From Methanomicrobia archaeon (GTDB lineage: Archaea > Methanobacteriota_B > Thermococci > Methanofastidiosales > NM3), in the NCBI GenBank assembly GCA_030603445.1, contig JAUVXU010000004.1, positions 1 through 42,655 of the forward strand: a DNA stretch of 42,655 nucleotides, read 5' to 3'. Each line of letters starts with the position of its first letter. The first letter of the stretch is position 1. Below the pieces are notes generated by a model. It was given only the letters and a program-made list of their open reading frames with translations, made no database searches and had not been told where the DNA came from. The translations under genes were made by a program, and so were the position numbers. This document shows, piece by piece, positions 25,155-29,778 of this stretch.

Positions 25155-25256
25155 ATGTGAAAAATAACTATTTGGATAAAGTAAGTTCATAGGCCTAGAA
25201 ATGCAACGTTAAGTAACCAAGGGACTTTGCACATGATAATATTGCCTAAAAAAATA

Positions 25257-25388
25257 TTATCTCATACAAATACCTGATAATATTCCGCCTGTCATAAGTC
25301 CAAACATCAAGGCGAAGTTGTACATTCCCATCAAAGTCCCTGATGAGCGTTGTGTTGATGCCTTGGACACGAACGACAAGTTCAGTTA
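25257..25388 (-). pseudogene. Decayed MFS transporter C-terminal fragment
   Basis: Between two in-frame stops on the minus strand lies a peptide of about 42 residues that includes STQRSSGTLMGMYNFALMFG and LMTGGILSG. This matches the late-helix signature of major-facilitator transporters (ERGTxMGLYNFAxxLG...GP..GG). There is no start codon and nothing homologous upstream, so it is a relic of a lost gene at the left edge of the AT-rich island. Confidence 0.55.
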
Positions 25389-25436
25389 AGCAAGAGAATA
25401 TACCATGCACACTTACTGCACATTTAAATATGTTTT

Positions 25437-25586
25437 TCACAAACCTAATTTGTACATTATGCTCAAATTGAAGAGTTGTAATTTGTCTATTACACGGGCT
25501 TTTTTTATGCTTTTCTCAATAGCTTCATCTGCTAACTCAACAAAATCAATTAGCTTATCTAAAACCTTTCTGAGTGATGAATCCAT
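25437..25586 (-). CDS. Unannotated 49-aa leaderless small protein
   Basis: Complete 49-codon frame from ATG to TGA. The product is charged and helical (KVLDKLIDFVELADEAIEKS, then KKARVIDKLQLFNLS), with leucine/isoleucine spacing of an amphipathic helix and no cysteines. A TATATTA box has its first T at 25617, 31 bases before the ATG, the same promoter-to-start geometry as other leaderless genes here. It lies between the MFS relic and the SAP-repeat nuclease gene, on the opposite strand. Function unknown; a small regulator or antitoxin is only a guess. Confidence 0.4.
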   Translation of the reverse strand: MDSSLRKVLDKLIDFVELADEAIEKSIKKARVIDKLQLFNLSIMYKLGL

Positions 25587-25825
25587 TAATTATTTTTTTA
25601 TCTTGATTTTTAATATATTTTTTCTCGAATTTTCTGAACACGTATTTTTTGTGCAAAGTCTGAAAAAAGGGAATAAATTTAAGAATATTTAATCTGTATT
25701 TATATTAATTTTTAAAAATAATTAAAATAAAGCAAAGAAATATGTATTATGGCCCATTAGAATCTTTCAAAAGGGATGATTCTAATTAAAGAAATTTTCC
25801 TTAAAATAAGAGGGTGGAATACTAA

Positions 25826-27616
25826 ATGAAAAATTTTGAAATATTGAGTCAATATAATAGAAGAGATTTAAGAAAATTGGCCAAAGGAAAAATATCAGAA
25901 ATCGTTGGCATAAATTCTGAAAAAGTATTAATCAACCTCAGTAAAATATTGGGCAACTATGAGAGCATTAGAAATAATATTGAATTTAGAAAACCTCCGG
26001 CGCATACAATTCTCGAAGTCTTATTTGATGCCCCAAATCGTCTTGTAAAGTTTGAGGATTTGAAGCCAATAGTTATAAAAAAAATCAAAGAATACCAAAA
26101 ATTATCAAAAGATATGGATTTTGATGACTCAGCTAAAAATTATCATTTGTATGCTAAAGTATTGAATACTGCTTGGGAGTATGAAGGAGATTTATTGCCT
26201 GCCGAGGCAAATATATTAAGAGTGCTTAGAAAAGAATTGAATATTTCAAAAAAAGATCATCAGTATATTATGGCTCATCCCAAAATCAATAGACTAATTT
26301 TTAACGAAGATATGTATAGGAATGAAATAGAATATTTATCAAGAGAAGGCATAATTCTGATTTACAAAAAAGATAATGATGATTATTTTGTTTTATCTGA
26401 AGAGACAGTAGAGAGTCTCAATGAATTATGGGGAATAGAACTTGAACCTGATCAATTTTTAAGATTATTAAATATATTTAACAATATCCAATTGTCTAAA
26501 ATATTGAAATCATTTGAGTTACCTTGTTATGGTAAACAAGAAGAGAGGATTAATCGAATTTTTTCTAATGAATTAAAACCCAGCAAGATATTATACTCCT
26601 TATCTAATGAGAACTTATCCTCTTACTTGAAAATAATTAATCTTCCCCCATATGGAAAGAAAGAGGAAAGAGTATTAAAAATAATTGACCATTTCAAATC
26701 CAACAAAGATTTAGAAAAACCAGAACCAGAGAAGAAAAAAGAAGTAGTAGTTGAAGAGAAATTATTATCCGAGGAAAAGCGAATAGACTTGTTGTCAAAC
26801 TTAAACGTTGAACAACTGTACACAATAGTAGAAAAACTAGATCTCCCAAAATCGGGTCCAAAAAAAGTTCGCATTGATAAATTAGTTAACAGTCGATACA
26901 ATATAAGGACTATTTTAAATTGTCTTAAGATAGATGATATAAAAGATATATCCAATAAAATAGAAGCAAAATCTTATGGACCTAAATCGGATCAAATTAA
27001 TAACTTGATTTCTTACTACCGAGAGATAATCACTAAAGAAAGTACGTTGCCTACCAAACAATTATTTAATCATTACGACGAATTAAGCTGTCAAGACAAA
27101 CGAATATATCCTAAAGAAGACAATTTGGGGGAAATAAATACAGCGACAATTGCAATAGACTTTGAAAGAGTGACTAAGTATATATTCAAAAACATTTTCA
27201 AATTAGAAACGAAAACCCAAAGGTTTGGAAAGGAAGAACCTGATGGTACTATCATAGATGATGAAGGAAATATTTTTTTCTATGAGTGCAAAACGGTGTT
27301 AAATCCACCCTACACTCTGCCAATCGCTCACAGATTACAAATTAGGAATTATATTCAGAAAATTTCAGGAACAAAATATGAAGAAAATTTCAAGGGTTAC
27401 ATTATAATTTCGCATAGTTTTTCAGATAATATCAGAAAAAAACTTCAAGAAATAGAATCCCCCATAGATGTTCCAATAAGTGTTATTGAAGCAAATGATT
27501 TGGCTGCTTTTGCTTCTAAATGGAAAATAGATTATCCAACAGATACATTTCCAATTAAACAAATCGTAAAAAATTGGAAAATTGCCACTAGAGATTTTGA
27601 AAAGGTTTTACGATAA
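25826..27616 (+). CDS. SAP-repeat protein with PD-(D/E)XK nuclease domain
   Basis: 596-aa protein I cannot match to a named family. Residues 1-210 contain a helical N-terminus and a region like a winged helix (about 122-200). Four SAP-like repeats of about 30 residues follow (about 223-250, 263-290, 329-357, 371-400), each with an L...L.LP.YG.K..R pattern; a charged linker (300-315) separates the first and second pairs. The C-terminus holds a restriction-endonuclease core: Glu447 in a helix, PDG (472-474), YECK (Glu487, Lys489) and Gln505. This suggests sequence-tolerant DNA binding plus cleavage. AGGGTGG 8 bases upstream supports the ATG. AT-rich codon use and island position suggest transfer or defence. 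Confidence 0.7.
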   Translation: MKNFEILSQYNRRDLRKLAKGKISEIVGINSEKVLINLSKILGNYESIRNNIEFRKPPAHTILEVLFDAPNRLVKFEDLKPIVIKKIKEYQKLSKDMDFDDSAKNYHLYAKVLNTAWEYEGDLLPAEANILRVLRKELNISKKDHQYIMAHPKINRLIFNEDMYRNEIEYLSREGIILIYKKDNDDYFVLSEETVESLNELWGIELEPDQFLRLLNIFNNIQLSKILKSFELPCYGKQEERINRIFSNELKPSKILYSLSNENLSSYLKIINLPPYGKKEERVLKIIDHFKSNKDLEKPEPEKKKEVVVEEKLLSEEKRIDLLSNLNVEQLYTIVEKLDLPKSGPKKVRIDKLVNSRYNIRTILNCLKIDDIKDISNKIEAKSYGPKSDQINNLISYYREIITKESTLPTKQLFNHYDELSCQDKRIYPKEDNLGEINTATIAIDFERVTKYIFKNIFKLETKTQRFGKEEPDGTIIDDEGNIFFYECKTVLNPPYTLPIAHRLQIRNYIQKISGTKYEENFKGYIIISHSFSDNIRKKLQEIESPIDVPISVIEANDLAAFASKWKIDYPTDTFPIKQIVKNWKIATRDFEKVLR

Positions 27617-27773
27617 GAAACAATCCATGAAAAATATTAAGAAATTCAATTTATTCACACTTTTTACTGCATTAGCTAAGATAAGCACTTCTTAGTTTTA
27701 TGAAGCTCTTACATTTTTTCATATTTTCAATGCATTGTGATATCCTCTACCCACAGCAGTTAACAATGTTTAC

Positions 27774-28358
27774 TTGTATTACATTTTTAATTATTCCGGA
27801 GAATATAACGAGTTATTTCCGGGGGTAATGATGGCTTTCGTTGTCGCTATTTTCTTTTATGTATTTAAGGAATATATTAATGCACCAGATATATTATTAA
27901 GAAAAGATTTTATTTATTTACTAAATAATGGCAAATATGCTATAAAATTGGAGGCATTGCCTATTAGAGATATTATTCTCCTAGATGTAAAAATATATTG
28001 TTTTAAAAACATTAATCAAGAAAAATCTTTTAAAAAAAGAATTAATTCAATCTTAAAAAAAGACACATATCATACAGACCAGATTTATCAAATCCCAGTA
28101 ATACTACAAGATAAATACATAGTCTTAGATAGAGAATCTGTATATTATGAACATTACTTAATTATTGATATTAATATTAGTAGTAAAATTGATTTAATAT
28201 CTTATTTAAAAGAAAAAAAGAATATTGATACCTTAAAAATTACAATTATTTTCACTAATAACAACAGTAATATATGCCATAAATCATATTTTATAAATTT
28301 AAATGACACTGAAATTAAAAAAATAGCTAAAGATATTAAATCAATACATTTAATGTGA
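27774..28358 (+). CDS. Membrane-anchored protein of unknown function
   Basis: About 194 aa. One hydrophobic helix near the N-terminus (PGVMMAFVVAIFFYVF, about residues 17-32) is followed by a cytosolic or exposed domain rich in Lys, Ile and Asn with alternating hydrophobic strands. No motif is recognisable. The start is uncertain: TTG 27774 is the longest choice, while ATG 27828 or 27831 follow a GGGGGT ribosome-site-like run but would trim the helix. It follows the SAP-nuclease gene by 157 bases in the same direction, so it could be a partner. Codon use is extremely AT-rich. Confidence 0.5.
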   Translation: MYYIFNYSGEYNELFPGVMMAFVVAIFFYVFKEYINAPDILLRKDFIYLLNNGKYAIKLEALPIRDIILLDVKIYCFKNINQEKSFKKRINSILKKDTYHTDQIYQIPVILQDKYIVLDRESVYYEHYLIIDINISSKIDLISYLKEKKNIDTLKITIIFTNNNSNICHKSYFINLNDTEIKKIAKDIKSIHLM

Positions 28359-28499
28359 TAGTAATATTAGCTATTTTTTAAATAAAGATTTTTTGTTCAA
28401 ACTTTCCAATTAAATGCACGAGATGTAATTAATGTGTAAAACTCAATCAAAGATTAAATTTTTATTTATTAGAGATATAAAAAACTAGGAGGGGATAAA

Positions 28500-29420
28500 A
28501 TTAAGAAAAATACCACCATAATAATAATTATTATAATATTGTGCCTTTCTGCTGTTTGTATCGGTACAGATAGCGATAACGATAATGAGACCACTACAAC
28601 TACACCCCCAACGACGACGATTGTTCCAACTACGCCTTCTGAACATATGTATTACTCTCAATTAGATATAACAAGTGTAACATCTAATAATAACAAAATA
28701 ACTATTGAAGGAACAACAGACCTTCCTTCAGGTTCAACTTTGATTGTAGGTGTAAAACTAGCAAATCTCGAACCAGAGGACACCTGGGTTGGTGTAGATG
28801 CACATGCAGAAGTTTCCAATGGAAAGTTTTCTGTAACTATGGATACCATCACAAACCCTGCTTTTGCAAAAGGCCCCTATGTTGCTTCAGCATTTTTTAC
28901 TCCAAAGAATCAGGAGCAAAATGTTATTGACTGCGTTGGAGAAAATGGAGAATATTTGACTGGTGAGCATCTTCTTTTTGGAAATTGGAATATGTTGGAA
29001 GTAGAAGTTACTGTAGATTCACTAAACCTAAATATTCAAACTGAATACCCTATGGTAAAAGCTATAAATTATCCTTCTCACTCTGCGGAACGTGCTTTAG
29101 CCGAGTTTTTAATTTCGTGGCAAAATGAAGATTGGGAAAGAATGGCATCTTTCACTCAAAAAACGTGGAAACATGGTGAAGACGATCCCAATGATATAAT
29201 GTGGGCATGGTTTGGATTCATGGAGTTACAAGGAGTTGAGATAAATAGTGTGGTTCATACTAGTGAATGCGTAACTGATATTTCATTCACAATGTATTAT
29301 ATAATATTTAATGATGTAAAATCTGAAACGAGAGTAGCTCGGGTGATATGCGAAACAGAACCATATACACCAGACCCCTCTGGTGAATGGGGTGTTAATC
29401 CAATCTCAATATTGTCATAG
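28500..29420 (+). CDS. Secreted lipoprotein with ATT start
   Basis: 306-aa exported protein of unknown function. The N-terminus KKNTTIIIIIIILCLSAVC is a basic-hydrophobic lipoprotein-like signal, although the residue before Cys is Val rather than Gly/Ala/Ser. A Thr/Pro linker (TTTTTPPTTT) and an immunoglobulin-like beta segment (ITIEGTTDLPSGSTLIVGVK) follow, then a C-terminal domain containing FLISWQNEDWERMASFTQ that resembles NTF2-like folds. No ATG, GTG or TTG precedes the signal. The frame opens at ATT 28500, five bases after a perfect AGGAGGGG, so a non-canonical start is proposed; a TTG at 28539 would remove most of the signal. Confidence 0.62.
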   Translation: MKKNTTIIIIIIILCLSAVCIGTDSDNDNETTTTTPPTTTIVPTTPSEHMYYSQLDITSVTSNNNKITIEGTTDLPSGSTLIVGVKLANLEPEDTWVGVDAHAEVSNGKFSVTMDTITNPAFAKGPYVASAFFTPKNQEQNVIDCVGENGEYLTGEHLLFGNWNMLEVEVTVDSLNLNIQTEYPMVKAINYPSHSAERALAEFLISWQNEDWERMASFTQKTWKHGEDDPNDIMWAWFGFMELQGVEINSVVHTSECVTDISFTMYYIIFNDVKSETRVARVICETEPYTPDPSGEWGVNPISILS

Positions 29421-29431
29421 AATGAACAAAA

Positions 29432-29464
29432 AAATATTGGGATTATCCCAATATTTCTTTTTTT
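29432..29464 (+). terminator. Intrinsic terminator after the lipoprotein gene
   Basis: Perfect 11-bp stem (AAATATTGGGA / TCCCAATATTT) with a TTA loop, followed by C and seven T. It begins 12 bases after the lipoprotein stop codon. Confidence 0.8.
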
Positions 29465-29748
29465 CCGTGTCATTAATACAAAGGTCATAAGTAATTTTTT
29501 TAAATAGATCCCCAGAATCATGATGGATTTTCACAAAAATTAGATATAATACTTCTATTCCTAAAAATGTTTTTTTATATGGGTAATTGTTTATATTACA
29601 TTTTTTATTGTCTCCAAATGTTAATATGCGGGTTCTAATGCAGTTGATCTACTAACCAACTTTTAATTTCTATCTATTTTTCGTAAATTAGATTTTAGAA
29701 AAACAAATATATTACTAGCGCCCTTCATAAAACATTTCTATAGGCAGA
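29465..29748. other. AT-rich spacer with no gene seen
   Basis: About 280 bases between the terminator and the sppA promoter. I see no plausible reading frame, RNA gene or repeat. The last part (TTAATAAG near 29750) is the likely promoter of sppA. Confidence 0.5.
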
Positions 29749-29778
29749 TTTAATAAGAATGCCCACAGTCATTTTCAT

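Follow-up and report, generated by a model that had tools for sequence, protein, structure and literature searches.

The question raised by this locus is what kind of DNA-cutting enzyme is encoded by a long open reading frame at positions 25826 to 27616 of the window, the whole 42,655-nucleotide stretch from a Methanomicrobia archaeon that was analyzed, and which DNA it would act on. With a probability of roughly 0.55, the protein is predicted to be a stand-alone restriction-like DNA endonuclease that was acquired horizontally. The grounds for this reading are the architecture of the protein, the genomic interval in which its gene lies, and the comparison with other explanations.

The gene and its AT-rich interval

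The open reading frame starts with ATG and encodes a protein of 596 aa. A ribosome-binding site of the archaeal type can be read directly 8 nt 5' of the start codon. At the base composition of the island, the probability of 596 open codons arising by chance is ~7e-24, and a frame that stays open for so long is therefore regarded as a real gene. The gene and the features around it are as follows.

25272..25382, minus strand: MFS transporter remnant of 37 codons (tblastn with the intact transporter gene of relative G003: 54% identity, E 2.6e-8)
25810..25817, plus strand: ribosome-binding site GAGGGTGG (direct sequence reading)
25826..27616, plus strand: gene for the predicted SAP-repeat/FokI-like nuclease, 596 aa (ORF, start codon, ribosome-binding site, open-frame probability)
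27774..28358, plus strand: short ORF whose product has a single membrane segment predicted at its N terminus, at most a candidate partner of the nuclease (ORF, hydropathy, no informative family match)

The nuclease gene (~29% GC) is located in a 29% GC interval (25155-29778) between the genes for an ACT-domain protein and SppA. The GC content is 28-30% across this AT-rich interval against ~45% on both flanks, and GC3 is 0.25 in the nuclease gene against 0.47-0.49 in the nearby PaaK-like, ACT, and SppA genes. In the relatives G002 and G003, the same ACT-SppA interval holds peroxiredoxin and MFS transporter genes, and in G004 it holds peroxiredoxin alone. In the window it contains the transporter remnant, the nuclease gene, the one-helix membrane ORF, and a lipoprotein-like ORF (28539-29420) with a Thr-rich stretch after its signal region. 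Because the interval holds a transporter with peroxiredoxin in two relatives, only peroxiredoxin in another, and the nuclease island here, genes may have been replaced at this site repeatedly. The earlier note on this DNA had described an AT-rich gene in an island with a gene relic, followed by a membrane protein; the low GC content and the relic are confirmed, the relic is now identified as the transporter remnant, and the downstream ORF has one predicted membrane segment. The lipoprotein-like ORF has no relative among 115 genomes of the phylum, and the membrane ORF has one marginal PHROG match of unknown function (E 0.005) and otherwise no family match.

The nuclease itself had no relative in protein searches of the 115 genomes of the phylum, nor in plasmids or phages, and viral contigs gave no match in seven scans with the nuclease protein and one with the FokI domain. 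Two narrow pattern scans of 84,980 species genomes revealed no homologue either. The species-genome scans and two of the viral scans were performed with degenerate alignments whose extra rows had been invented by varying the query; these rows are patterns, not relatives, and they were used as search patterns only and entered no comparison. The species-genome misses are weak evidence of absence, since few patterns were chosen and some were poor, as in the first genome scan. Scans with Pfam, NCBIfam, PADLOC, and PHROG gave no match above cut-off for the nuclease, and PADLOC models gave none at E up to 1 for it or its two downstream neighbors. The nuclease is thus an orphan in the searched data; orphan status in nature is a separate matter.

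SAP-like repeats and a FokI-like cleavage domain

On one polypeptide, the domain order is an N-terminal region (residues ~1-206), four SAP-like repeats, and a C-terminal FokI-like PD-(D/E)XK domain. The parts of the protein are placed as follows.

26150..26269, plus strand: ENT-like helical stretch, residues 109-148, tentative (sub-cut-off Pfam ENT)
26462..26569, plus strand: SAP-like repeat 1, residues ~213-248 (pairwise scores against shuffles; joint profile to PDB 2rno)
26585..26692, plus strand: SAP-like repeat 2, residues ~254-289 (pairwise scores, joint profile; closest to repeat 1)
26789..26893, plus strand: SAP-like repeat 3, residues ~322-356 (sub-threshold Pfam SAP; pairwise scores, joint profile)
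26912..27019, plus strand: SAP-like repeat 4, residues ~363-398 (pairwise scores, joint profile; most divergent of the four)
27146..27520, plus strand: predicted FokI-like PD-(D/E)XK cleavage domain, residues 441-565 (hhalign against the FokI family; controls against shuffles, unrelated ORFs, Mrr, and Cas4)
27239..27292, plus strand: catalytic motif P472-D473-G ... E487-C-K489 (aligned to FokI D450, D467, and K469)

The four repeats within residues ~213-398 are mutually similar: for all six pairs, the observed repeat-versus-repeat score was reached by only 0-3 of 500 shuffles. Their conserved Gly residues are spaced by 41, 67, and 41 residues, which indicates that the array consists of two close pairs, and a Lys/Glu-rich linker divides it into ~213-289 and ~322-398. 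Single repeats all stay under the Pfam SAP cut-off, with a sub-threshold match for repeat 3 alone, and the best match of the query to PF02037 is 16.7 bits against a gathering cut-off of 23.9. When the four repeats were joined into one profile and compared with 177,635 PDB sequences, the top match was the solved SAP domain 2rno (E 3.1e-5), with SIZ1 (2rnn) and DEK (2jx3) weakly behind. The profile match indicates that the repeats have the helix-turn-helix-like SAP sequence pattern in common, and the assignment of four SAP-like repeats in the earlier note is upheld by this ranking together with the shuffle test. Genome searches with the Pfam SAP and TerB models yielded nothing of use; the SAP model had no match even in the control genomes and gives no information on the note's remark that SAP repeats are rare in archaea.

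Upstream of the repeats, no clear relative was found for residues 1-206, and the N-terminal half has no Pfam match to FokI. A Pfam ENT match at residues 109-148 lies under cut-off (E 0.0045 with the whole protein and 1.9e-4 with a 57-aa fragment), and residues ~162-200 could, by eye, form a small winged element.

The catalytic core was likewise read correctly in the earlier note, which had called its PDG, ExK, and Gln apparently intact: the residues are PDG 472-474, ECK 487-489, and Q505 (within LQIRNY), and the numbering of Asp473 and Glu487 is correct. The spacing from E487-C-K489 to Q505-x3-Y509 is also reminiscent of RecB-like nucleases. As this likeness came with no family name from Pfam, candidate nuclease families were compared. 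A FokI family profile was aligned from the FokI cleavage domain, checked against PDB 1fok/2fok and PF09254, and five plasmid relatives. With hhalign, residues 441-565 match this family over 121 columns with E 3.1e-4, and FokI D450, D467, and K469 fall over D473, E487, and K489 of the query. The score is 31.1, while 200 shuffles gave a mean of 13.1, an SD of 2.6, and a maximum of 23.3; under other hhalign settings, the query scored 27.7, above each of 300 shuffles (≤20.4) and each of 144 other ORFs (≤19.0). Two rival families from the same phylum were rejected, as the Mrr profile (11.9) and the Cas4 profile (13.1) score at chance level against the query. Individual Mrr or Cas4 proteins reach ≤16.4 against the FokI profile. 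Since the FokI score exceeds those of shuffles, other ORFs, Mrr, and Cas4, the cleavage domain is, judged by its sequence, FokI-like and not a generic PD-(D/E)XK domain.

The probability reported by hhalign itself for the FokI match is only 19-39%, and it is consequently the controls with shuffles and rival families that carry most of the assignment. The identity of the domain to members of the FokI family is 15-21%. PF09254, the Pfam family of the FokI cleavage domain, gave no match to the query even at an E limit of 10, against 215.9 bits for true FokI. The pair D483/R487, known from the zinc-finger-nuclease literature, stabilizes the FokI dimer; it is not conserved in the query, which has L504 and N508 at the aligned positions, and the WWK insertion of FokI is absent. 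AlphaFold predictions without homologues gave a mean pLDDT of 36 and 39 in two runs; the order of secondary structures fits PD-(D/E)XK, and the models are too poor to serve as proof. The kinship with FokI adds to the earlier account and, by sequence comparison, places the nuclease more precisely as FokI-cleavage-like.

A separate observation was made on a FokI-domain enzyme of Weissella confusa plasmid p1 (L031:2001-2486). At the positions of FokI D483 and R487 it apparently has R and D. The charges of the salt bridge would then be exchanged, reminiscent of the engineered obligate-heterodimer variants of FokI.

The proposed function and its alternatives

The proposal of a stand-alone restriction-like endonuclease is supported by the SAP profile match and by the FokI-specific match with D473, E487, and K489 aligned. 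Horizontal acquisition is supported by the AT-rich interval, which replaces the transporter and peroxiredoxin genes of relatives, and by the absence of the gene from the rest of the phylum. Against the restriction-like reading stand the lack of a homologue, of a PADLOC match, and of an adjoining methyltransferase or defense gene, the lack of conservation of D483/R487, and the 15-21% identity. As no homologue was found, conservation, neighborhood pattern, and a reliable model are all missing as support for a function. The earlier interpretation thus stands in its architecture, SAP repeats with an apparently intact PD-(D/E)XK core, and in its island setting, while the same three gaps (PADLOC match, homologue, adjoining methyltransferase or defense gene) leave the defense effector, or the modification-dependent or single-component restriction enzyme, at the level of inference.

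In the proposed mechanism, the N-terminal region and the SAP array would hold double-stranded DNA, and the tethered nuclease domain would, as in FokI, form a short-lived pair with the same domain of another molecule. One active site per chain and transient dimerization are described for FokI and many Type IIS enzymes (PMC4081073). If the query likewise has one active site per chain, two molecules would be expected to cut together, severing both strands near the bound site with a divalent metal. Foreign DNA would be the most likely target, in a presumed role in defense. Since no methyltransferase adjoins the gene, other ways of sparing host DNA are invoked: the host may lack target sites or marks, a distant methyltransferase may protect it, or several bound molecules may be needed for cleavage.

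The protein could instead belong, as the restriction half, to an ordinary Type IIS-like system that has lost its methyltransferase or encodes it at another place in the genome. The FokI-like domain fits this explanation, solitary restriction genes do occur, and a search of the genome for the D12 and N4/N6 families found one N4/N6-type methyltransferase, on another contig, C41. However, a Dam-family methyltransferase adjoins all four annotated FokI-domain plasmid genes, whereas neither a methyltransferase nor a recognizable defense gene adjoins the nuclease, and no methyltransferase occurs among the window genes scanned. The genome has no match to a D12 methyltransferase, the N4/N6 gene sits among other genes of its own, and the N-terminal half of the nuclease is unlike FokI at the Pfam level; a Type IIS half is accordingly considered unlikely. 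A nuclease that serves a mobile element instead of cell defense, by homing, by transfer of the element, or in competition with other elements, would agree with AT-rich genes that lack relatives in the phylum and lie in a horizontally acquired interval. Yet genes for an integrase, a transposase, or replication were not recognized, neither a tRNA junction nor a convincing flanking repeat was seen, and plasmid, phage, and viral collections gave no match, so that such a role appears distinctly improbable. A role in host repair or recombination, as a structure-specific nuclease whose SAP repeats read DNA shape, is very unlikely. SAP domains are indeed used by the SLX1-SLX4 endonuclease to recognize structures (PMC8287910), but the gene is absent from every other searched genome of the phylum, its acquired AT-rich interval is not expected of core repair genes, and the cleavage domain is of the FokI type.

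The N4/N6 methyltransferase locus has features of its own. At C41:33580-37575, the putative DNA methyltransferase (372 aa, with a TSPPY motif) is convergent with the gene for a 246-aa protein, a 715-aa protein is encoded before it, and pyrimidine biosynthesis genes adjoin. It is possibly a separate defense locus.

Comparison with known DNA-targeting systems

The annotated plasmid FokI-type cleavage domains examined here come with a neighboring methyltransferase. If the stand-alone restriction-like reading is true, a SAP array on a FokI-type domain without a methyltransferase would widen the range of DNA-targeting modules, and the nuclease would offer a compact repeat-plus-cutter protein. Literature searches found no paper describing a restriction or antiphage protein that combines SAP repeats with a nuclease. 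With a single copy and no homologues, the finding is a lead, not a discovery.

Among SAP domain proteins (PF02037), such as SIZ1 and DEK, the likeness is that the joint profile of the four repeats ranks a solved SAP domain first; the difference is that in the query a single nuclease chain carries four sub-cut-off copies, grouped as two pairs. FokI and the Type IIS enzymes with PF09254 share with the query a C-terminal PD-(D/E)XK domain, with 121 aligned columns and matched catalytic residues, and a separate DNA-binding part that is N-terminal, as predicted in the query. In contrast to these enzymes, the query has Glu for the second Asp, shows no Pfam-level match, and has neither the WWK insertion nor the dimer-contact residues D483/R487; it carries SAP repeats where FokI has its recognition domain, and no methyltransferase adjoins it.

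The designed zinc-finger and TALE nucleases resemble the query by analogy only, in that a repeat-built DNA-binding array is joined to a FokI-type cleavage domain. Base-by-base reading of a sequence is not known for SAP repeats. It is a long shot that the protein is a natural counterpart of these designer nucleases, in which a tandem SAP array would place a FokI-type cleavage domain on DNA chosen by sequence, modification, or structure, as a single-protein defense without a methyltransferase. Unlike the zinc-finger and TALE nucleases, the query is a natural protein.
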